Below, piece after piece: positions 2,701 to 53,751 of a DNA stretch of 64,000 nucleotides. The notes beneath the pieces were generated by a model. That model did no database searches. It was not told the DNA's origin and worked only from the letters and a program-made list of their open reading frames with translations. This stretch comes from a virus, in the IMG/VR virus record IMGVR_UViG_3300009551_000005, positions 1 through 64,000 of that record; one strand, 5' to 3'. The position numbers were made by a program, and so were the translations under genes. Position 1 is the first letter of the stretch, and every line of letters starts with the position of its first letter.

Positions 2701-2996
2701 GCGCGCGCTCGAAGTGGGTGGGCACACCTTCGCCCAGGCAACTCCCAATTCGCGAGACTGCGCTGCCGAGCGTCTATTGGGCTGCGAGCGGCTGGGGCAT
2801 CCGTCTCGAAGAGCCCGACGATATCCACTCGGCTATGGCGCCCATGTCGCTACCGCCGGAGCACTGGCGCGAAACCGTGCTGCGCATCTTGCACCTCACC
2901 GAGGGACACGACCCAGACCCCGACGACCAGCGGCCCGATGGAGCGTGCCCGCTCTGCGAGAAGATCGCCGCAGTGCTCTTGGAGGTGCGTCCGTGA
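2697..2996 (+). CDS. Small hypothetical protein, 99 aa
   Basis: It starts at a GTG overlapping the previous stop and ends at a TGA overlapping the terminase GTG, so it is coupled on both sides. The end of the protein has CPLC after an acidic stretch (GHDPDPDDQRPDGA). It resembles small zinc-ribbon-like accessory proteins, but no family is recognised. Its position directly before the large terminase suggests a head-packaging accessory role; this is inference from position only. Confidence 0.65.
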   Translation: MSARSKWVGTPSPRQLPIRETALPSVYWAASGWGIRLEEPDDIHSAMAPMSLPPEHWRETVLRILHLTEGHDPDPDDQRPDGACPLCEKIAAVLLEVRP

Positions 2997-4813
2997 TCTT
3001 CGGAAACACCGCGCTCGCGCCGAACCCCATCGACCTTCGCGACGGCAAGTGGCTCCTCGCCAACGGCTCGGCGGAGGACACGGCCATTGTCCGTGACGAG
3101 CTCCTCCTCGAGGCCGCCGACGCGCGCACCGACATCAAGAAGTTCTTCGACTTCGTGATGCGCGAGCAGACCACGCGAAGGCCCATCACCGCGCTCCCGC
3201 ACCAGCGCGTGGCGCTCGACTTCGTGATGGATCACCAGCGCTCTCTTCTCGTCATGCCCCCGGGCTTCAGCAAGACGTTCATGCTGACGGCCATCTGCCT
3301 CTTCATCATGGGTCACGAGCCCACGATGCGCGGGCTCTTCGTCTCCGCGACGCGTGCGCAGTCCGAGAAGGTCCTCGCCGTCATCCGCGGCTACATCGAG
3401 AACAGCCAGGAGCTCCGCCTTGTGTTCCCGGGTCTCGTGCCGACGCGGCGCCAGGGTGAGAAGTGGACGCAGCACGCGCTCACGGTGGACCGTCCCGCGG
3501 GCATCAACGACCCCACGCTCGTGGCCGTGGGACTCGATTCCGAGTCCATCGCCGGTTCGCGCCTCAACTTCGTCGTCGCCGACGATCTGCTCACCGAGGA
3601 GAACACCGGCACGAAGGACCAGCGCGACGACATCTACAACTGGTTCGCGCAGATCCTCAGGACGCGTCTCGACCCCGGGCACAACATGTCCAAGCTCGTG
3701 GTCATCAACACGCCGTGGCACCACGACGATCTCGTCGCGCGCCTCGAGATGCGTGGGCCGGAGGGCGCAGGCTCGGCGACGCTCAAGATGGACGTCTACG
3801 GTGACATCACCGTGCTCGACGACGAGACAGGGCCGGAGCAGGCCGCTGACGAGGGCAAGGAATGGGAGCCGTGGGACAGCGACGAGCTCCGTCCACGCTC
3901 TCCGGGGGACGCGTCCGATCCGATTTGCCGGCTCGTCGCTCATGACCCGGACAACGACAACCAGAAGCCGCTCTGGCCGGGCAAGTTCGGCGTGAAGGAG
4001 ATCAACCAGATCCAGCGGACGACGCTGGAGAACATCTTCCTCCGCAATTACCGCCTGCTCGTGCGCGACGACGCGACGGCCATGTGCCCGCTCTCCTACG
4101 TGGAGAAGGGGAAGCTCCGCGCCCACCAGCTTGGGTACGACCAGATGGGCGCAGCGCTCGTCCGTCGGCACCAGGACATGAACACCTTCACCGGCGTCGA
4201 CCTCGCGGTCCGTCAGGGGGAGGCAAACGACAAGGTGGCGTTCTTCACGTTCGGCGTTGTGCCCTCAACCGCGCAGGTCGGAGCGCAGATGCTACGCCTC
4301 GTCCTCGACGTGGAGGAGGGCCAGTGGCCGGCGCACGTCATCCTCGAGAAGGTCATCCTGAAGCACGTGCTCTACGGCTCGAGCATCATGGTCGAGAACA
4401 ACGCGGCGCAGGAGTACATCGTCCAGATGTTCGACTCGCCGGAGATCATGAAGGCGGTCATCGAGAAGCTGCGGCGCGAGGGGCACAACGTGCCGGAGGA
4501 CATTGCGATCCCGGTGCGCGGCTACACGACGGGTTCGCAGAAGGCCAACCCGACGTTCGGCGTGCCGTCCATCTTCCTCGAGATGAGCCACGGCGGCTGG
4601 CTCTTTCCGTGCCGCGAAGAGGGCGGGAAGCTTGTCTGCACCTACCCGCTCCAGCGCGCGCTCGACCAGGCGATGAACTACCGGCCGGAGGAGCACACCG
4701 GCGACGCGCTCATGGCGTGGTGGTTCGCCAAGGAGCTCGCGCGTAAGTGGGGACTTCTCACGTACCTGGGAGAGGACGGCGGAGGCGGCGTCGGCTCGGT
4801 CATGCAGCGGTAG
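2993..4813 (+). CDS. terL: Terminase large subunit (DNA packaging ATPase-nuclease), 606 aa
   Basis: The motor that cuts concatemeric DNA and pumps it into the prohead through the portal. The ATPase half has a deviant Walker A (MPPGFSKT, residues about 87-94), a Walker B (FVVADDLL, about 192-199) and a coupling motif (VVINTPWHHDD, about 238). The nuclease half has the RNase-H-like acidic residues in TGVDLA (about 401), VENNA (about 465) and HTGDALMA (about 570). The length is normal for the family. The start is the GTG of a GTGA overlap; the frame is open further upstream but overlaps a real gene there. The stop is followed at once by a copy of the 24-bp palindrome. Confidence 0.95.
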   Translation: MIFGNTALAPNPIDLRDGKWLLANGSAEDTAIVRDELLLEAADARTDIKKFFDFVMREQTTRRPITALPHQRVALDFVMDHQRSLLVMPPGFSKTFMLTAICLFIMGHEPTMRGLFVSATRAQSEKVLAVIRGYIENSQELRLVFPGLVPTRRQGEKWTQHALTVDRPAGINDPTLVAVGLDSESIAGSRLNFVVADDLLTEENTGTKDQRDDIYNWFAQILRTRLDPGHNMSKLVVINTPWHHDDLVARLEMRGPEGAGSATLKMDVYGDITVLDDETGPEQAADEGKEWEPWDSDELRPRSPGDASDPICRLVAHDPDNDNQKPLWPGKFGVKEINQIQRTTLENIFLRNYRLLVRDDATAMCPLSYVEKGKLRAHQLGYDQMGAALVRRHQDMNTFTGVDLAVRQGEANDKVAFFTFGVVPSTAQVGAQMLRLVLDVEEGQWPAHVILEKVILKHVLYGSSIMVENNAAQEYIVQMFDSPEIMKAVIEKLRREGHNVPEDIAIPVRGYTTGSQKANPTFGVPSIFLEMSHGGWLFPCREEGGKLVCTYPLQRALDQAMNYRPEEHTGDALMAWWFAKELARKWGLLTYLGEDGGGGVGSVMQR

Positions 4814-4815
4814 CG

Positions 4816-5480: not shown

Positions 5481-5544
5481 GTCCCGGCCGCGGACGGGTA
5501 CTTGGGATCGCCGTCGGGAGGTTCGACTCCTCCCCGGCGGACCG
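5468..5544 (+). ncRNA. tRNA-like element, Pro(UGG)-like 3' half
   Basis: Bases 5517-5533 form a perfect T-arm (GGAGG, loop TTCGACT, CCTCC). It is followed by CCGGCGG, then A and CC, as in the 3' end of a tRNA. Bases 5501-5507 read CTTGGGA, the anticodon loop of a proline tRNA with anticodon TGG. The 5' acceptor strand GCGCCGG pairs at six of seven positions, but the D-arm is not recognisable and the anticodon stem is poor. It overlaps the end of the upstream gene. It may be a decayed tRNA or a tRNA-derived attachment site rather than a working tRNA. Confidence 0.35.
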
Positions 5545-5568
5545 CTCGCCTTCATCAGGAGGCAAGCG

Positions 5569-6198: not shown

Positions 6199-6677
6199 GC
6201 GCTCTTCTCGACGCCGTTCGGCCCATCCTCGGAGCGCCGCTCACGGGCGCGATTGGTCGCGCGTTCCACTTCATGGAGGTCGCGGAGGACGAGATCGCGC
6301 GAGCGTGCGCCGGCAAGCGCGGGAAGCTGCGTGAACGCGTGCACGGCTCGTTTCGCCATCTCGCGCCCGGACCGCTCATCGGGCTCTGCGATGACGTCTA
6401 CAGACACCATTGCCGGGAGATCATCGAGCGCGTCGCGCGCGCCGAAGACGTGCGCCCGGCGACGAAGGCGGAGGTCATGGCGCTCATCTCGCAGGCCAGC
6501 CTCGCCGCGCCGCCCACGCACGTCGCCGGAGCGCTCATGCTGCGCATCTTCAACGAGGTGTTCCCCGAGAATCCCCAGCCGGTCGACGGACACTTCGCGG
6601 CAGTCCCGCGGGCCGACGTCGACGAGCTCTTCGCCGAGATGCGCAAGAAGGGCGCGCGGCATCGCGGAAAGCCATGA
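6195..6677 (+). CDS. Hypothetical protein, 160 aa
   Basis: ATGA overlap with the upstream HicA-like gene and another with the next gene. The protein is mostly helical, with several His and Cys residues in the middle (LCDDVYRHHCREIIE). No membrane or signal segment is present. The family is not recognised. Tight coupling to the HicA-like gene means the two are made together. Confidence 0.65.
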   Translation: MSALLDAVRPILGAPLTGAIGRAFHFMEVAEDEIARACAGKRGKLRERVHGSFRHLAPGPLIGLCDDVYRHHCREIIERVARAEDVRPATKAEVMALISQASLAAPPTHVAGALMLRIFNEVFPENPQPVDGHFAAVPRADVDELFAEMRKKGARHRGKP

Positions 6678-12872: not shown

Positions 12873-13124
12873 ATGAAGCTCGTCGACGTTCTCTTCATGA
12901 TCGATGCGGCGTTCATCTTGGGCGCCATCCTCTCGTTCTTCCTCATCGGTTCGGGCGTGGTGAGGGTCACGATCTTCCGAAAGGACGGACGTGAGGTGAC
13001 TCCGCGCCAAAGAGCTGTTCTGGACGTTCCTCTATGCGCTGGTCTGGCCGGCTGCGCTCTACGAGGGCTGGAAGAACCGGAACGAGCCCGACGACGAGGA
13101 CGATCCGTGAAGATGCTCCGTTAG
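12873..13124 (+). CDS. Small membrane protein, probable frameshift, holin-like
   Basis: The N-terminus is a membrane helix (MIDAAFILGAILSFFLIGSG, residues about 8-27). The uninterrupted frame then degenerates after GREVT. In the +1 frame, bases 13000-13110 encode LRAKELFWTFLYALVWPAAL and an acidic tail with good codon use, but no start codon is available. A +1 shift near 12999 would give a protein of about 78 aa with two membrane segments, the layout of a small holin. Sequence error, decay or real frameshifting are all possible. Confidence 0.5.
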   Translation: MKLVDVLFMIDAAFILGAILSFFLIGSGVVRVTIFRKDGREVTPRQRAVLDVPLCAGLAGCALRGLEEPERARRRGRSVKMLR

Positions 13125-13522
13125 CCCGAGTTCGGGAGGAGCGAACTGTCGACGGCGTTCGGCGTCTTCAGGTCGTACATCGCCAGCATGTCCACCGCGG
13201 CTTGCACGACCAACGCCTTGCCGAAGGGCTTCGCGCTCGTGATGCACACGGCCAGCAAGGAGTGCGCGCGCGTTCGGTAGATGAGCGTCCACCCGATGAG
13301 GGTCCTCGGCACCGTGTTGTCGGGCGCGGCGATGAGCACCTGCTTCTCGGGCGCGAGCGCGTGGATCATCAGGCCGCCGGAGAGCGCGGGGCTGTACGAA
13401 GGTCCGACGATGGAGAGACGCGCGTCGCCAGGCAGCTCCACGTAGTTGAAGTTCCCCAGACACTTCTTCGTGAGGAGCGCGAGATTGGCGGTGAGCGTGG
13501 CGGCGCTGAAGTCCCTGGCCAT
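13121..13522 (-). CDS. Hypothetical beta-rich protein, 133 aa
   Basis: Lone minus-strand gene. Its ATG is preceded at 6 nt by TACGAT, matching the leaderless pattern. The protein is mixed alpha/beta (FNYVELPGDARLSIV, QVLIAAPDNTVPRTLIGWTL) without signal or membrane segments. It converges on the small membrane protein gene and diverges from the gene at 13541, sharing the same 7 bp of -10 sequence. Function not recognised. Confidence 0.7.
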   Translation of the reverse strand: MARDFSAATLTANLALLTKKCLGNFNYVELPGDARLSIVGPSYSPALSGGLMIHALAPEKQVLIAAPDNTVPRTLIGWTLIYRTRAHSLLAVCITSAKPFGKALVVQAAVDMLAMYDLKTPNAVDSSLLPNSG

Positions 13523-13540: not shown

Positions 13541-13774
13541 ATGAACGGCAACACTCCCCAATCCCGTCGCTCTTGGTCCCAAGGCTCTCCGCCCAACGTC
13601 GTTGCGCTTCGGCCTGGGTCGCCGGCGGCCAAGTTCAAGCCCGTGAAGATCCGCTACTCGTTCATCGAGCGCATGGACTTCTTCCTCATCGATCACCCGC
13701 GCATCGTCGCCGCGGCGCTCATCTTCTCGCTCGCTGCCATCGGCGCGCTCCTCGCCATCCTGGTCACGCGCTGA
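13541..13774 (+). CDS. C-terminal membrane-anchored small protein, 77 aa
   Basis: A basic, Pro/Ser-rich N-terminus (PQSRRSWSQGSPPNVVALRP) is followed by a single membrane helix near the C-terminus (VAAALIFSLAAIGALLAILV). The layout fits a tail-anchored inner-membrane protein such as a pinholin, antiholin or spanin partner. The next gene, a papain-like protease, starts 22 bp later. Confidence 0.65.
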   Translation: MNGNTPQSRRSWSQGSPPNVVALRPGSPAAKFKPVKIRYSFIERMDFFLIDHPRIVAAALIFSLAAIGALLAILVTR

Positions 13775-13783
13775 GCTGGGCGT

Positions 13784-13796
13784 TAGCCTCCACCGC
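13784..13796 (+). promoter_or_regulatory. Leaderless promoter (TAGCCT)
   Basis: TAGCCT ends 7 nt before the ATG at 13797. TGGTCA lies 17 bp upstream and could serve as a weak -35. Confidence 0.65.
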
Positions 13797-14768
13797 ATGA
13801 GTGTAGAGGCGACGCAGAAGAAGCTCGGGCTCGGCCACCGCATCAACGAAGACCTCCGCAAGAAGGTCGACACCATCAGCGCACGCGGCGCGCTCGGGGG
13901 AAGGCGCGGGCTGTCCCCGTCGGCTGCGCTCTCCTCGTTCGTCGACTTCAACATCGGCACGGTCGCGAATCAGAAGCAGACCAGCACGTGCGTCGCGCAC
14001 GCGCTCTCCGTCGCGCTCTACGTGCGCGCGAAGAAGCTCGGAGCTCCCTTCAGCCCCGTGGGCGTCATCCCTTCGCGGCCCGGGATCTACTGGGCAGCGC
14101 TGGCCATCGAGAGACGCCTCAGCGTTCCTGCTGACGCGCCGGTGGACGTGAAGCTGCCGGACCTCCTCGACCAGGGCTCCGACCCGATCCTCGCGGGGCA
14201 AGGCGTCGGCGAGTTCGGCGCGTGCCTCGAGACGGACTGGTCGCTCGGGCAGGCGTTCCCCGATGCGGATGCGGGAGCGCCCGACGGTCAGCCCTTCGTC
14301 GTGCCGCAGCCGCCGTTCGGCGCACTCGAGACCGGGCAGACGTTCACGCTCCGCGATGTCCTTCAGGTCCAGTCGGTTGGGCCGGAGCGTGTGCTCGACG
14401 TTCAGCAGGCCATCGATACCGGCTTCCCGGTGCCAGTCGGCATGCTCGCTGACCAGGCCATGATGCAGTACGGCCCGAACAGTCCTCCGCTCGGAGCCTC
14501 GAACAAGGCGACGGGAGTCGGCGGGCACATGCCTCTCCTGCTCGACTACTACGTCGACCCCGCGTTCGGTCTCGTGTTCTTGGGCGCGAACTGGTGGGGT
14601 TCGGACTGGGGGCGCAACGGCTACTTCCTCTGCACCCCGGACTTCATCACCGCGGATACCACCAACGATCTCCTCCTCGTGGAGGGTCACGCCGGCGTCA
14701 CGCAGGCGGTCAGCAACAGGAAGCTCGCCGCGCATGCGAAGCTCGCAGCCGTGAAGGAGAAGAAGTGA
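13797..14768 (+). CDS. Papain-like (C1-type) cysteine protease, 323 aa
   Basis: The papain signature is present in order: Gln and the nucleophile in NQKQTSTCVAHALS (Cys near residue 65), the catalytic His in GVGGHMPLLLDYY (near 244), and the Asn motif GANWWGSDWGRNGYF (near 264). No signal peptide is seen, so it is made in the cytoplasm. A role in virion maturation, host takeover or lysis is possible. Papain-family enzymes are rare in phages. It is followed in a TGATG overlap by a lipoprotein gene. Confidence 0.82.
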   Translation: MSVEATQKKLGLGHRINEDLRKKVDTISARGALGGRRGLSPSAALSSFVDFNIGTVANQKQTSTCVAHALSVALYVRAKKLGAPFSPVGVIPSRPGIYWAALAIERRLSVPADAPVDVKLPDLLDQGSDPILAGQGVGEFGACLETDWSLGQAFPDADAGAPDGQPFVVPQPPFGALETGQTFTLRDVLQVQSVGPERVLDVQQAIDTGFPVPVGMLADQAMMQYGPNSPPLGASNKATGVGGHMPLLLDYYVDPAFGLVFLGANWWGSDWGRNGYFLCTPDFITADTTNDLLLVEGHAGVTQAVSNRKLAAHAKLAAVKEKK

Positions 14769-15076
14769 TGAAGCTCTCGCTCTTGCCGATCCTTTCCCTC
14801 CTCGCGCTCGCGGCGTCGTGTACGCCGGCCAACAACCCGACCGACGCCGGTGATGGCGCTCCGCCTCCGCCAGGACCGGCTGCGGCGTGCTCGGCGATGT
14901 GCGCGACGCTGCGCAAGATCCCTTGTCCTGAGGGACGCGCGGACGCGGGCACTGCGTGCGAGGACTCCTGCATGAAGGTGCAGGCCAATCACTCGGGTGA
15001 TCTCAAGCCGCTCTGCGTGGCCGACGCGGGCAGCGCCGAAGCAGTCCGCGCTTGCGGCACGATGACTTGCCAGTAG
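14768..15076 (+). CDS. Cys-rich lipoprotein, 102 aa
   Basis: Signal peptide with lipobox LAASC (Cys near residue 18), then a short Asp/Pro/Gly-rich linker and eight further cysteines (CSAMCATLRKIPCPEG...CEDSCM...LC...CGTMTC), suggesting a small disulfide-bonded domain in the periplasm. The style is that of myxobacterial lipoproteins. Coupled to the protease gene, which suggests a shared role at the cell envelope. Confidence 0.75.
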   Translation: MKLSLLPILSLLALAASCTPANNPTDAGDGAPPPPGPAAACSAMCATLRKIPCPEGRADAGTACEDSCMKVQANHSGDLKPLCVADAGSAEAVRACGTMTCQ

Positions 15077-15103
15077 AGTGAGCCCACGCCCGGCGACGGG
15101 AGC

Positions 15104-15109
15104 TTAGCC
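15104..15109 (+). promoter_or_regulatory. Promoter (TAGCCT) with no start codon at +1
   Basis: Identical to the leaderless promoters, but the expected start of transcription (15116) is the first base of a perfect hairpin, not a start codon. Probable promoter of a non-coding RNA. Confidence 0.55.
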
Positions 15110-15115
15110 TCCTCC

Positions 15116-15188
15116 CCGCGGCGCCAGAGCGCTGACTTCGAGCAGTTCTCTGGCGCCGCGTAGTTCAAAAGGCTCTCCACTGGGGAGC
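15116..15188 (+). ncRNA. Candidate structured non-coding RNA
   Basis: The first stem is 13 perfect base pairs (CGCGGCGCCAGAG at 15116-15128 with CTCTGGCGCCGCG at 15147-15159). A second hairpin follows (GGCTCTCC at 15170 with GGGGAGCC at 15181, one G-U pair). A third, weaker one lies near 15197-15225. The RNA would begin exactly at the first stem, driven by TAGCCT at 15104. The interval has no plausible coding frame. It may regulate the endolysin gene downstream or act in trans. Confidence 0.5.
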
Positions 15189-15245
15189 CGCGGCAGAACG
15201 ACGGGCACTTTCGTCCGTTCACGAGCACCTCGAGCGGCTCAGCGG

Positions 15246-15258
15246 TAGCCTTCACCGC
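15246..15258 (+). promoter_or_regulatory. Leaderless promoter (TAGCCT) of the endolysin gene
   Basis: TAGCCT ends 7 nt before the ATG at 15259. Confidence 0.65.
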
Positions 15259-16803
15259 ATGCCCGTCCCCAAGAAGACCGCTCGCCTTGTCCCGCACCTC
15301 TTCGTCGTCGACCGCGACGCCATCGTGACCGAGGAGCAAGCGGTGCTCCTCTACCGCGCGGGCGTGCGCGTGATCGAACGCTGCGTCGGTCACCCGACGA
15401 TGAAGGACCAAGACCTCACTGCCGAGGAGCTCGACCGGCTCATCACGCCGAACGCGAACCGCGGCGGCTTCGGTGTCCTCACCTACGGCTACTACCGCGA
15501 CGCGGACCACACGCCGGACAACGGCGCAGCCGACGCGAAGCTTCACCTCGCGCAGTGGGCCGCGGCGGGTTGCGCTCCCGGCTCAACGCACTCTCTCGAC
15601 CTCGAGGCCTCGCATTGGGGACCGGACGTCGCGGGCTTCGCGGAGGTCTACATCGCGCTGGTGAACGAGCCGACGTTCGATGTCATCGCCAATCCGGGTG
15701 ATGGGCCGGAGTCGTGTGCCTACGACTTCTGTGCCGTACTCACCACGCAGCAGAAGGACGCGCTGAACGCCAAGATGTGGTGGGGCACGCCGGCGACGCA
15801 GCTCGCGTACTGGCACCGCCCGACGATGGGTTACGTGCTTCTTCAGAGCGCGCAGACCACGGTCGCCGGCGTGGTCGTGGACAAGGATGCGGTGGTCGAC
15901 GGGATGCCCCTCTACCCCAACGCCACGGTCCACGAGAGCTGGAGCGGGTGGGACACCGCGGTCATCATGCCCCCGCCGCGTCAGCTCCCGACGCCCGATC
16001 CGAAGGATGCGCCGTTCACCTTCGTGCGCGGTGATGCGGAGAGCGCGGAGGAAGCGGTGGCGCGGTGCATGGAGGAGCTCCTCGACGTGGAAGGAACCGA
16101 GAGCATCGGTCACACGAAGCATCCCGCGCGCTACGCGAGCTACATCGACGGTCCGACGCAGCCCGCGGGCTTCATGAACGGGCACGCGGTCGCCGACATC
16201 TCTTCGTGGTCGACGTCCTGCGAGATCGTCGTGGAGGCTGCGGAGCGTTGGGCGGGTATCCACCGCGCGCCGCCGACCAACGGGCAAGGCTTCTTCGCGG
16301 TCTTCGGCAACGTACACGTGAAGTGGGATGGCAAGACCGTTCCCCCGCGCGGTGCTGAGCTCTATTGGGCGAGCAACGGCACGAACGGGCACACGGAGAT
16401 CATGCTCCGCCAGCTCCCGAACGGAGACTGGGAGACCGCCGGTGGCGGAGGCGGAAAGGACGGCACGGAGACCTCCATCCGCCGTCATCCGCACGGCGTC
16501 GATCCCTACGGGCGTCCGCTCGTCGGTTGGTGGCTGCCCTCCATTCACGCTGGCGAGGCCACCATCCCACCGCCTCCGCCCACGCTCCCGACGATCCTCG
16601 ACCTTCACACGGTCGCCGGCGTGCAGGGCGCGTTGAAGCGCCTCGGACACGATCCCGGTCCGGTGGATGGCATCATCGGCGTGCGTACGCGCGCGGCGGC
16701 GAAGGCGTTTCAGGCCGCCGTCGGGCTTCCTGCCACGGGCGTCGTCGACGATGCCACGCGCGAGGCTCTTCAGTCAGCGCTCGACAAGCAGGCGAGCGCC
16801 TGA
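15259..16803 (+). CDS. Multidomain endolysin, 514 aa
   Basis: Lysis enzyme that cuts the host cell wall. Residues about 10-220 resemble a GH25/DUF1906-type glycosidase barrel, with the acidic pair in HSLDLEASHWG near 112-115. Residues about 255-430 look like a CHAP amidase: Cys in SWSTSCEIVV, then PPRGAELYWASNGTNGHTE with the His. Residues about 450-512 are a peptidoglycan-binding domain (GVQGALKRLGHDPGPVDGI...RTRAAAKAFQ). There is no signal peptide, so export would need a holin. The combination of glycosidase, amidase and cell-wall binding is large for a Gram-negative phage endolysin. Confidence 0.82.
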   Translation: MPVPKKTARLVPHLFVVDRDAIVTEEQAVLLYRAGVRVIERCVGHPTMKDQDLTAEELDRLITPNANRGGFGVLTYGYYRDADHTPDNGAADAKLHLAQWAAAGCAPGSTHSLDLEASHWGPDVAGFAEVYIALVNEPTFDVIANPGDGPESCAYDFCAVLTTQQKDALNAKMWWGTPATQLAYWHRPTMGYVLLQSAQTTVAGVVVDKDAVVDGMPLYPNATVHESWSGWDTAVIMPPPRQLPTPDPKDAPFTFVRGDAESAEEAVARCMEELLDVEGTESIGHTKHPARYASYIDGPTQPAGFMNGHAVADISSWSTSCEIVVEAAERWAGIHRAPPTNGQGFFAVFGNVHVKWDGKTVPPRGAELYWASNGTNGHTEIMLRQLPNGDWETAGGGGGKDGTETSIRRHPHGVDPYGRPLVGWWLPSIHAGEATIPPPPPTLPTILDLHTVAGVQGALKRLGHDPGPVDGIIGVRTRAAAKAFQAAVGLPATGVVDDATREALQSALDKQASA

Positions 16804-16863: not shown

Positions 16864-16938
16864 GGGGCTGCCCGCCGGCCCACCTCCCAAACCCGCTCCC
16901 CTCGGGTGAACAGGAGGCTGGGAACGGCGGGCAGCCCC
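16864..16938 (+). other. Long branched hairpin element
   Basis: GGGGCTGCCCGCCG (16864-16877) pairs perfectly with CGGCGGGCAGCCCC (16925-16938). Inside, CCCACCTCC can pair with GGAGGCTGGG and ACCCG with CGGGT, making a nearly continuous stem of about 75 nt. There is no T-run after it, so it is not a standard intrinsic terminator. It lies between the endolysin stop and the next leaderless promoter. Confidence 0.7.
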
Positions 16939-18156: not shown

Positions 18157-18162
18157 TACCGT
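18157..18162 (+). promoter_or_regulatory. Promoter -10 (TACCGT)
   Basis: TACCGT with predicted transcription start near 18169. The mRNA has a leader of about 22 nt with GAGGAGG as ribosome site. Confidence 0.5.
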
Positions 18163-18188
18163 CCTCCTCGTACCTGGCGAGGAGGACG
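18160..18188 (+). promoter_or_regulatory. Inverted repeat joining -10 region and ribosome site
   Basis: CGTCCTCCTCG (18160-18170) and CGAGGAGGACG (18178-18188) are perfect 11-bp complements around TACCTGG. The right arm is the Shine-Dalgarno sequence of the gene at 18191. The predicted transcription start is at the end of the left arm, so only mRNAs arriving from upstream could form the hairpin. Confidence 0.65.
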
Positions 18189-18190
18189 AC

Positions 18191-18802
18191 ATGGCGGACG
18201 ACAAGCACATCGTGGTGTGGGACCCCCTGGGGGAGTTCGAACAGGGCTCGCTCCTGACGGCCGAGGAGGCGAACCTCCTCCATCAGAACCACGGCGCGGT
18301 GGTCATGCCCACCGACGTGGGACTTCACCGCCGGAGCGGCGTCGGCGGCTTCGCTTTCCGCGCATGGGGGGCGGGTTTCCCGCTCGAGAGCACCTATCCG
18401 CGTCACGTCTGCCCGCTCGTCCTCTTCGGTGACGGAGAGCACGGCTACGTGCACTGGGCGGTACGCCTGGTGGCCGAAGAGGAGCTCTACGAGCAGGTGC
18501 GAGGGGGTCGGAAGCTCGAAGGCCAGATCCGCTTCGGCGGAGACTCTTCGCAGATCAATCACCTCCATCCACCTCTCGCGGCGACCGACACCGCGATTCA
18601 CGGTCACAAGCTCACCGCGTCGAGCATGCACCGTACGGGCGGGTGGATCGTGGGCGGAGTCATCCCCTATCAGCCCCGCGCCGGCGACGGCGGCGGGCAC
18701 TATCCCTTCAGCGTCTACGGGCGCATGGAGGGGCTCAAGGCCGCGTGGGCGGCGTGCACCAAGACCGGAGCCGTGCGCGGCGTGATGGGAGGCTGGGGAT
18801 GA
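18191..18802 (+). CDS. Hypothetical protein, 203 aa
   Basis: Beta-rich with many His, Gly and Trp residues (GYVHWAVRLVAEEELY, HGHKLTASSMHRTGGWIVGG). No signal or membrane segment. Possibly a small virion or carbohydrate-binding protein, but no family is recognised. The start follows a strong GAGGAGG site that can be sequestered. Coupled by ATGA to the next gene. Confidence 0.6.
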   Translation: MADDKHIVVWDPLGEFEQGSLLTAEEANLLHQNHGAVVMPTDVGLHRRSGVGGFAFRAWGAGFPLESTYPRHVCPLVLFGDGEHGYVHWAVRLVAEEELYEQVRGGRKLEGQIRFGGDSSQINHLHPPLAATDTAIHGHKLTASSMHRTGGWIVGGVIPYQPRAGDGGGHYPFSVYGRMEGLKAAWAACTKTGAVRGVMGGWG

Positions 18803-34140: not shown

Positions 34141-34167
34141 CCAGGACCGCGAGAAGAGCACGGCGAG

Positions 34168-34205
34168 GGGCCGAGCCTCGAGCGGGGTTCGGCCCTTCTG
34201 TCTTT
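34168..34205 (+). terminator. Intrinsic terminator
   Basis: GGGCCGA (34168-34174) pairs with TCGGCCC (34189-34195) and is followed by TTCTGTCTTTT. One of the few T-rich tails in this GC-rich window. Confidence 0.7.
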
Positions 34206-34224
34206 TGAGGAAGGCGAGGAGACC

Positions 34225-50601: not shown

Positions 50602-52464
50602 GTGTACCTCATCCCCTCCTGCAAGGTGCGCCTGGCCATCCGCTTCGACGAGATGGGGGCGCACCGTGACCTGAAGACCAAGGCCGACGCTCAGAACGCC
50701 ACCGCCACCACCAAGAACCTCTCCGGCGTGAAGGTGGAACGCGGTGACCTGAAGCTCGTGCAGGACGGGGATGCGCCGCCGGGCGTGTCGCGTCTCATCC
50801 TTCTTTCGTCGAGCAGCGTCTCGCAGATCCAGTCGAACCAGCCGAACGCGCTCCAGCAGGACAAGGGCGGGTTCCTGCGCATCGCCAACAGCATCCCTCA
50901 GCGATCGCAGGACAAGCTCACGTACGACGTCCTCCTCATCCCGACTGAGGCGACGTGGAAGAAGAACGGCATCCGCGAAGCCGACCACCTCACGGTGAAG
51001 TTCCCCTACTCGCAGTTCCCCTTCGACCCACGCCTCGTTCGCTCCGTCGCGATGGAGCTCATCATGGGGTGCGTGAAGCCGGAGGACTACGAGGCCGGCG
51101 TGAATGGGGAGTACCGCACGCTGCCCGATGGCTCTCAGGAGCTCCGGTCTGTCGTGCCCGACACGTACACCGACAACCAGGGAAGGCCGCGCACCAACAC
51201 ACGCTTCCAGGGCTTTTGCGACACGTGGGAGAACGAGTGGCCGACCGACGGAGAGCCGATGGTCACGCTCGAGGGGCGCGACAACACGCAGCTCATCATC
51301 GACCAGACGGTCTCGCCGCGGCTCGTCGTCGACATGAACAAGCCGATTCACGAGGCCGTGGCGCAGTACCTCTCGCACTTCCCGCAGTGCGAGGGGCTCA
51401 GCGTGGAGTACCTACCGCCGGGGGAGACGCCGCCGGTGCTCAGCAAAGTGCTCGCGAACACCGCGTTCCGTCCGCAGCTCGGACCGCAGCCCTCGAAGGG
51501 CGGTCAGGATCTCAAGGCGTGGGACTACCTCACGGACATCGTAGGCGCCGTCGGTCACTCCATCCGCCTCGACGGCACGCGGGTCATCATCCAGCGCGTG
51601 CGGAGCTTCATGACCTCCGCGTCGGTGCGCCGGCCGGACGATCCGTACACCGGAAGAACTGGGCCCGCGGGTGAGCGCCTCGAGTGGCGGCGTTTCCTCT
51701 GGGGCAGGAACATCGCGAGCCTCAAGACCAAGCGCACGTTCACGCCCACGCGCTCGCCGGTGAACATCGAGGTCCGCATCTACAACCATGCGACGAAGCA
51801 GCTCATCGTCGGGCGGTTCCCCGAAGACCACGACCGCCAGGTGTACGCGATCCCGGGTGACGCTTCTCCTGACCAGAAGTGGGAGGTGCGTCGCATCGGC
51901 TACGCAGGGATCAAAGACGCGAAGACCGCGAAGCTCATCGCGCAAGAGCTCTATGAAAGCCAGGGAAGGAACGAGCTCGAGGTGGAGCTCCACACCGACG
52001 ATCTCGCGAGCTACGCGGGAAGTGACGATGACCCGGACATCCTCGACGCCACCGCCGGCGACACCATCGAGGTCATGACCGCGGAGGCCGCGGCGGACGA
52101 GAGAGACAACGAACAGGTCACGCTCGCTGGCGTTCTCGCGAGCTCCTCGCGCGCACGGCAGCACATCAAGAACCTCGGCTTCACCGACGAGTTCGCGGAC
52201 GCGTTCGCACAGGCGAGCGCCAACAGCGCCTTCGTTCAGCAGTTCCGGCTGAAGGAGCTCGAGTCGAAGTGGACGATCGGCGACGGTGGCGGAGGAGGCA
52301 TCGAGCTCACGGTCGCCGGCACGAACTACCAAGAGGTCAGGAGCGACAAGGTGGGTCTCGACGAACCGGACAACAACCCCGGTCTGCCGCCGCTCCCCGG
52401 TCCTAACGCTGGCCCGCCCGCGAACCTGCCCGCGCCTTCCGGCTCGCCTTCCGGTTGGATCTAG
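50602..52464 (+). CDS. Baseplate hub protein (gp27/gpD-like), 620 aa
   Basis: The hub joins the tube end to the spike. The size, the order between LysM protein and spike, and the two-barrel pattern (RFQGFCDTWENEWPTDGEPM then VTLEGRDNTQLIIDQ, and later WEVRRIGYAGIKDAKTAKLI) match late-control-gpD or XkdQ-type hubs. The C-terminal 45 residues are Pro/Gly-rich. GTG start supported by the leaderless hexamer. Confidence 0.75.
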   Translation: MYLIPSCKVRLAIRFDEMGAHRDLKTKADAQNATATTKNLSGVKVERGDLKLVQDGDAPPGVSRLILLSSSSVSQIQSNQPNALQQDKGGFLRIANSIPQRSQDKLTYDVLLIPTEATWKKNGIREADHLTVKFPYSQFPFDPRLVRSVAMELIMGCVKPEDYEAGVNGEYRTLPDGSQELRSVVPDTYTDNQGRPRTNTRFQGFCDTWENEWPTDGEPMVTLEGRDNTQLIIDQTVSPRLVVDMNKPIHEAVAQYLSHFPQCEGLSVEYLPPGETPPVLSKVLANTAFRPQLGPQPSKGGQDLKAWDYLTDIVGAVGHSIRLDGTRVIIQRVRSFMTSASVRRPDDPYTGRTGPAGERLEWRRFLWGRNIASLKTKRTFTPTRSPVNIEVRIYNHATKQLIVGRFPEDHDRQVYAIPGDASPDQKWEVRRIGYAGIKDAKTAKLIAQELYESQGRNELEVELHTDDLASYAGSDDDPDILDATAGDTIEVMTAEAAADERDNEQVTLAGVLASSSRARQHIKNLGFTDEFADAFAQASANSAFVQQFRLKELESKWTIGDGGGGGIELTVAGTNYQEVRSDKVGLDEPDNNPGLPPLPGPNAGPPANLPAPSGSPSGWI

Positions 52465-53633: not shown

Positions 53634-53680
53634 GAATCCTTGGGCGGCGCGGGAAAGTGCCACCCGCGGTGAAAAACCTG

Positions 53681-53708
53681 TTGCGCTATAGCGCAGGTGG
53701 TTTATAGT
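53681..53708 (+). promoter_or_regulatory. Strong sigma70-like promoter with internal palindrome
   Basis: TTGCGC (53681-53686), 16-bp spacer, TATAGT (53703-53708). A perfect 14-bp palindrome TGCGCTATAGCGCA (53682-53695) overlaps the -35 and spacer, the place for a repressor. It differs from the TAGCCT promoters of the structural genes and heads the accessory cassette. Confidence 0.7.
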
Positions 53709-53751
53709 TTCCCTTATGAGCGGCGCTGAGGGCGCGAAAGGGGAAACGACG

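Follow-up and report, generated by a model that had tools for sequence, protein, structure and literature searches.

What is the role of a long, perfect hairpin that stands, with further hairpins behind it, between a promoter-like hexamer and the endolysin gene of a tailed phage? The window, i.e. the whole stretch of 64,000 nucleotides analysed here, comprises bases 1-64000 of the 100,493-bp IMG/VR record IMGVR_UViG_3300009551_000005. The phage was recognized by its terminase (2993-4813), its major head protein (35881), and a weak portal match (19635), and the second part of the record carries genes for a DnaB-like helicase, PolB, a RecA-like protein, and ThyX. Nearly all genes of the record lie on the + strand, with a GC3 of ~0.85-0.9. 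The gene list was produced by a simple codon-usage caller, so that non-coding fractions are approximate, including the called non-coding share of the record (~6.5%). The gap before the endolysin gene (Table 1) is 182 nt long and extends from a stop codon at 15074-15076 to the ATG at 15259. Of the two genes upstream, the 323-aa gene shows a weak match to phrog_16701 'peptidase' (E 0.0011), and family searches with the 102-aa gene returned no match. No credible ORF was found on the + strand of the gap (15076-15259), and the long minus-strand ORF running across it is of the spurious antisense type that is common in this high-GC genome; the interval is thus non-coding, as an earlier, sequence-only reading of the locus had it.

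Table 1. Features in and around the gap before the endolysin gene (window coordinates).
Feature	Position	Strand	Remarks
Upstream gene, 323 aa	13797..14768	+	Leaderless promoter TAGCCT at 13784
Small gene, 102 aa, lipoprotein-like by eye	14768..15076	+	Last gene upstream of the gap
TAGCCT hexamer without extended -10	15105..15110	+	Hexamer exact; doubtful as a promoter
Hairpin 1: perfect 13-bp stem, 1x1 mismatch, 4 more pairs, 8-nt loop	15117..15160	+	-34.0 kcal/mol
Hairpin 2: 8 pairs, one G-U, 3-nt loop	15171..15189	+	-12.7 kcal/mol
Hairpin 3: 7 pairs, two G-U, 6-nt loop	15200..15219	+	
Fourth, weak hairpin	15223..15240		Just 5' of the endolysin promoter box
Endolysin leaderless promoter, -10 box TAGCCT	15246..15251	+	Top score among the listed non-coding sites of the record
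Endolysin-like gene, 514 aa, C-terminal PG_binding_1	15259..16803	+	Pfam PF01471, E 2e-14; PHROG endolysins
Partner hairpin: perfect 14-bp stem, 47-nt interior	16864..16938	+	In the gap just 3' of the endolysin gene

Many genes of this phage start 6-7 nt downstream of a TANNNT box, usually in the form TAGCCT, TAGGCT, or TAGCGT, and without a Shine-Dalgarno sequence. These starts match the leaderless arrangement described for high-GC bacteria, in which TANNNT is located ~12 bp upstream of the start (PMC3160421). TAGCCT-N4-10-ATG is found five times in the window, as compared with 0.38 expected. The information in 20 leaderless starts sits in the hexamer and in the bases immediately upstream, a TGN-like extended -10 in which -4 is always C or G, -3 is T or C in 17 starts, and -2 is G in 15; the -35 signal of the same starts is slight. 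When left out of the training set, 15 of the 20 still score at least 8.4 bits. The endolysin ATG likewise has no Shine-Dalgarno sequence upstream, and the proposal that an endolysin-type gene is expressed here from its own leaderless promoter at 15246 is well supported.

Further elements are associated with gene starts and gaps elsewhere in the record. GGCATC precedes the ATG by 7-10 nt in eight genes that have no TANNNT box (0.6 expected), with starts at 6674, 10989, 13541, 16964, and 31699 of the window and at 64328, 69656, and 77170 of the record. It often lies within a small hairpin abutting the start codon, e.g. GGCCGCG-GCATCAGA-CGCGGCC-ATG, and may be a translational operator or mark promoters of a second class. 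The + strand gene at 13541 is divergent from one of the rare minus-strand genes (13121-13522), whose leaderless-type box, TACGAT, is the reverse complement of part of the GGCATCGTA element of gene 13541. Two gaps, at 53680-53730 and at ~72400-72450 of the record, share a near-identical stretch in which a GCGCTATAGCGC-like palindrome is followed by GGTTTATAGTTTCCCTT(A/G)TGAGCGGC, putatively a second, AT-richer type of promoter or operator.

The three hairpins that had been noticed before the endolysin promoter, the first with a perfect 13-bp stem, are all present at the positions listed in Table 1. The arms of hairpin 1 are CGCGGCGCCAGAG (15117-15129) and CTCTGGCGCCGCG (15148-15160); 11 of the 13 perfect pairs are G-C, and past one mismatch the pairing continues into an inner stem (15131-15134/15143-15146). 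Besides hairpin 1 and a repeated family of palindromes (see below), the record has no perfect stem that reaches 13 bp and encloses a loop of 25 nt or less, and composition-preserving shuffles in 60-base blocks produced 0-1 such stems per genome (mean 0.2). The folding z-score is -4.4 for 15104-15258 and -3.4 over its full length, and at least this degree of structure is seen in five more gaps of the genome; without hairpin 1 the gap folds slightly better than shuffled sequences (z -2.3). All four G-U pairs of hairpins 1-3 (inner stem counted) are formed on the + strand and would be A-C mismatches on the minus strand, which points weakly to an RNA of the + strand. A structure arisen by chance, or a relic that has no present function, is improbable: ~0.2 such stems are expected per genome and the shuffles yield no more than one of 13 bp or longer per 100 kb, but this one falls within the small non-coding share (~6.5%) and has two more hairpins directly behind it.

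The reading favoured here is that the hairpins form a transcript-boundary element, either a U-less terminator or a 3'-end/processing hairpin of the unit 13797-15076, insulating the endolysin promoter at 15246; we give it slightly less than an even chance. Transcripts of the upstream unit would fold hairpin 1 and, farther downstream, hairpins 2 and 3. The first of these may act as a U-less terminator that stops RNA polymerase, and/or constitute a protected (hence stabilised) or processed 3' end of the mRNA. Read-through into the endolysin gene would be blocked, and expression would start from the gene's own strong leaderless promoter (TAGCCT 15246, ATG 15259); as this promoter is the top-scoring non-coding site, read-through appears dispensable for endolysin expression. 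The position of hairpin 1 supports a boundary, since it begins 41 nt past the stop codon and ends 99 nt before the endolysin start, and so do its G-U pairs, which fit the + strand, and its stable folding in read-through RNA from upstream, where the pair probability is at least 0.95 (in RNA initiated at the 15105 box the pairing is the same, every pair reaching at least 0.9).

A wider search covered perfect stems with loops of up to 59 nt in the non-coding DNA of the record, with the palindrome family left out; the stems found measure 13 bp (15117), 14 bp (16864-16938), 11 bp (18160-18188), and, in two cases, 9 bp. The two longest non-coding stems outside the palindrome family flank the endolysin gene, one on each side, the partner hairpin beginning 61 nt past the stop codon; downstream of each stem, the next gene has a promoter-like element (TAGCCT at 15246, and GGCATC before 16964). 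Other genes are followed by strong stems too, at 34141-34224, where the tail is T-rich, and at 73889-74034. Both the flanking stems and those behind other genes support the boundary reading, and the partner hairpin could play an equivalent role at the other end of the endolysin gene; the bracketing of this gene was noticed after the fact and is suggestive only.

The boundary reading is weakened, on the other hand, by the lack of a U-tract. The tail after the stem of hairpin 1 is UAGUUCAAAAGG, no U-tract or other terminator was found in 15160-15258, and a simple terminator scan flags none of the stems; as compared with a canonical intrinsic terminator, the GC-rich stem is present and the U-tract directly 3' of it is missing. 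Furthermore, the 18-nt apical part of hairpin 1, in which the 8-nt loop lies past the inner stem, would be a long one in a terminator, and the fit between the 15105 box and the stem (~0.8-2.4% by chance) is left as a coincidence. Terminators without a poly-U tail, at most 50 bp from the stop codon, have been described in mycobacteria (PMC12288462), a claim that is disputed; the title of a 2014 mBio paper cited therein calls the U-tract a requirement. Hairpin 1 resembles these U-less ('I-shaped') terminators in its GC-rich perfect stem without poly-U, in its start within ~50 bp of the stop codon, and in its location before the next transcription unit. It differs from them in a larger apical loop and in the extra hairpins behind, and as a putative terminator it would need a host RNA polymerase that stops at U-less hairpins.

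The same stems could also be substrates of RNA processing. A double-strand-specific nuclease, e.g. RNase III, would in that case cut hairpin 1 and the 16864-16938 hairpin and free the endolysin mRNA. The early mRNAs of T7 are cut between genes. Long stems do stand on both sides of the endolysin gene, and hairpin 1 has 17 pairs with one mismatch, but this is short for RNase III; besides, ATG 15259 has a leaderless promoter and no Shine-Dalgarno sequence, so that a processed, leadered mRNA would be translated poorly. Processing of this kind is, in our opinion, distinctly unlikely.

A different origin of the RNA would follow if the TAGCCT hexamer at 15105 were a real -10. Chance would place 0.6 copies of TAGCCT in the whole non-coding DNA of the + strand and ~0.016 in the gap before the endolysin gene. 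The non-coding + strand holds 11 copies, nine of them 6-29 nt upstream of a gene start; the two exceptions are the copy at 15105, 148 nt from the start, and another at 52462, 203 nt from the start and overlapping a stop codon. The sequence-only reading had described the 15105 box as identical to the leaderless promoters, with a stem exactly where the start codon should be. The second observation holds, in that hairpin 1 begins 6 nt past the box, the N6 spacing of leaderless starts (chance of such a fit by random placement in the gap: 0.008 for the exact distance, 0.024 with a tolerance of three bases). The first is correct for the hexamer but not for the bases preceding it, GCT, which do not fit the extended -10; the box scores 2.94 bits, which 532 positions on the two strands match or exceed, and neither a palindromic operator nor a -35 was found at it. 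A promoter at 15105 is possible, but unproven.

In its amended form, the first reading would let the RNA start at 15117, the first base of hairpin 1, with a paired and protected 5' end, and the product would be a short regulatory RNA, or else the endolysin gene would have a second mRNA, poorly translated and with a structured leader of 142 nt. The exact hexamer, rare in non-coding DNA and mostly close to gene starts, speaks for this, as does the stem at the exact N6 distance. There are also precedents for abundant intergenic non-coding RNAs in phages, namely in the Rhodococcus phage WC1 and in mycobacteriophages (PMC10986025); the common feature is a non-coding intergenic interval, but those RNAs were seen as abundant transcripts, whereas the present case consists of a DNA sequence with a weak putative promoter. 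Against an RNA from 15105 stand the missing extended -10, operator, and -35, the low score, the absence of a terminator for a discrete RNA, and the absence of any target above shuffled controls: the longest complementarity of 15117-15245 to trans targets is 12 nt, equal to that of shuffled sequences, and the best duplexes with start regions fall inside the shuffled range. We find the amended reading doubtful. The regulatory RNA of 75-130 nt that had been originally proposed is not supported; from the proposed structured non-coding RNA, the exceptional stem and the G-U pairs fitting a + strand element are retained, but not a discrete, promoter-driven transcript. As no terminator-like feature follows the hairpins, an RNA from 15105 would continue into the endolysin gene as a leader. 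It seems unlikely that such an RNA, protected at its 5' end by the 13-bp stem, accumulates and either acts alone or delays lysis as an untranslatable endolysin leader, in competition with the mRNA that the promoter 141 bp downstream would produce, which is leaderless and translatable.

Known regulators of phage lysis genes differ from such a leader. PAK_P4as15 is likewise a putative RNA regulator at a phage endolysin gene, but it is an antisense RNA of ~550 nt (review PMC12197685), whereas the 15105 RNA would be a sense leader or upstream RNA. The leader of T4 gene e likewise has a hairpin adjoining a lysis gene, with a promoter close by; this promoter lies in the 5' arm, so that RNA started there lacks the hairpin and leaves the ribosome site accessible (PMC3014915). 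At the endolysin locus, in contrast, the box precedes the stem, both kinds of transcript keep the hairpin, and no ribosome site is sequestered. A T4-e-like switch for the endolysin is ruled out, since hairpin 1 pairs in the same manner in both transcripts and there is no Shine-Dalgarno sequence. Elsewhere in the window, a layout like that of T4 gene e (cf. PMC3014915) was observed at 18157-18193, where a perfect 11-bp stem (18160-18170/18178-18188) hides the GAGGAGG Shine-Dalgarno of the gene at 18191; a promoter-like box, TGC-TACCGT, at 18157 overlaps the 5' arm, and the resulting transcript would lose the hairpin.

Finally, the inverted repeat might function as DNA: its two half-sites of 13 bp, at a spacing of 31 bp (~three helical turns), would bind a phage regulator or a recombinase near the endolysin promoter. 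The arms are perfect, and the phage has many long DNA palindromes, several of which adjoin promoters; but the arms of hairpin 1 are single-copy in the genome, bear no relation to the palindrome family, and stop ~86 bp short of the endolysin -10, and the G-U pairs in the continuing stems suggest RNA. A DNA site is accordingly a very improbable explanation.

The palindrome family itself comprises perfect or near-perfect palindromes of 24-28 bp with the core CCGTCGGTGATCGATCACCGACGG, in ~19 copies over the 100-kb record. Those in the window are located at 4814, 7294, 11823, 19529, 29872, 37484, 46704, 52629, 59445, and 63759, and nine more copies of the core at 65945-98246 of the record. These sites lie inside genes as well as directly before TAGCCT/TAGCGT promoters, with the centre ~15 bp upstream of the box, and the palindrome resembles the operator or stoperator sites to which phage regulators bind. 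Its 20-bp core is present in one other IMG/VR contig. The contig IMGVR_UViG_3300049811_000692, with one palindrome core in common, shows no protein relatives, and six other IMG/VR contigs with a 16-bp palindrome core are unrelated.

The endolysin, peptidase-like, portal, and terminase proteins found no relative with this locus in IMG/VR, nor did the N-terminal part of the endolysin in a collection of bacterial genomes, in scans that used short exact peptide patterns, which distant relatives could escape. Searches of phage and plasmid records by DNA or protein found no relative of the locus either. Endolysin matches in IMG/VR cover essentially the peptidoglycan-binding end alone, and all terminase relatives there have <60% identity. 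A 9-bp core stem occurs in 37 IMG/VR contigs, but with unrelated loops and flanks and no preceding TAGCCT, and the 13-bp stem pattern is absent from the bacterial genomes. Rfam gave no match in the window at the gathering score, and with a lax threshold only chance-level miRNA matches at the hairpin locus. A search for tRNA genes in the window found none. At 79812-79880 of the record ARAGORN calls a tRNA-Leu(CAA), where Rfam shows no tRNA with E up to 1; a T-arm-like hairpin with GGTTCGACTCC is present both in that gap and at 5481-5568 of the window, and the two gaps may hold degenerate tRNAs or tRNA-like structures.

The readings of the endolysin locus have different consequences for the phage. 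Should the 15105 box be active, lysis would be controlled by two competing transcripts, one leaderless and translatable, the other structured and silent. Should the hairpins be a transcript-boundary element, as favoured here, a phage that relies on leaderless promoters would insulate its lysis gene on both sides, and the gene's own promoter alone would time lysis.
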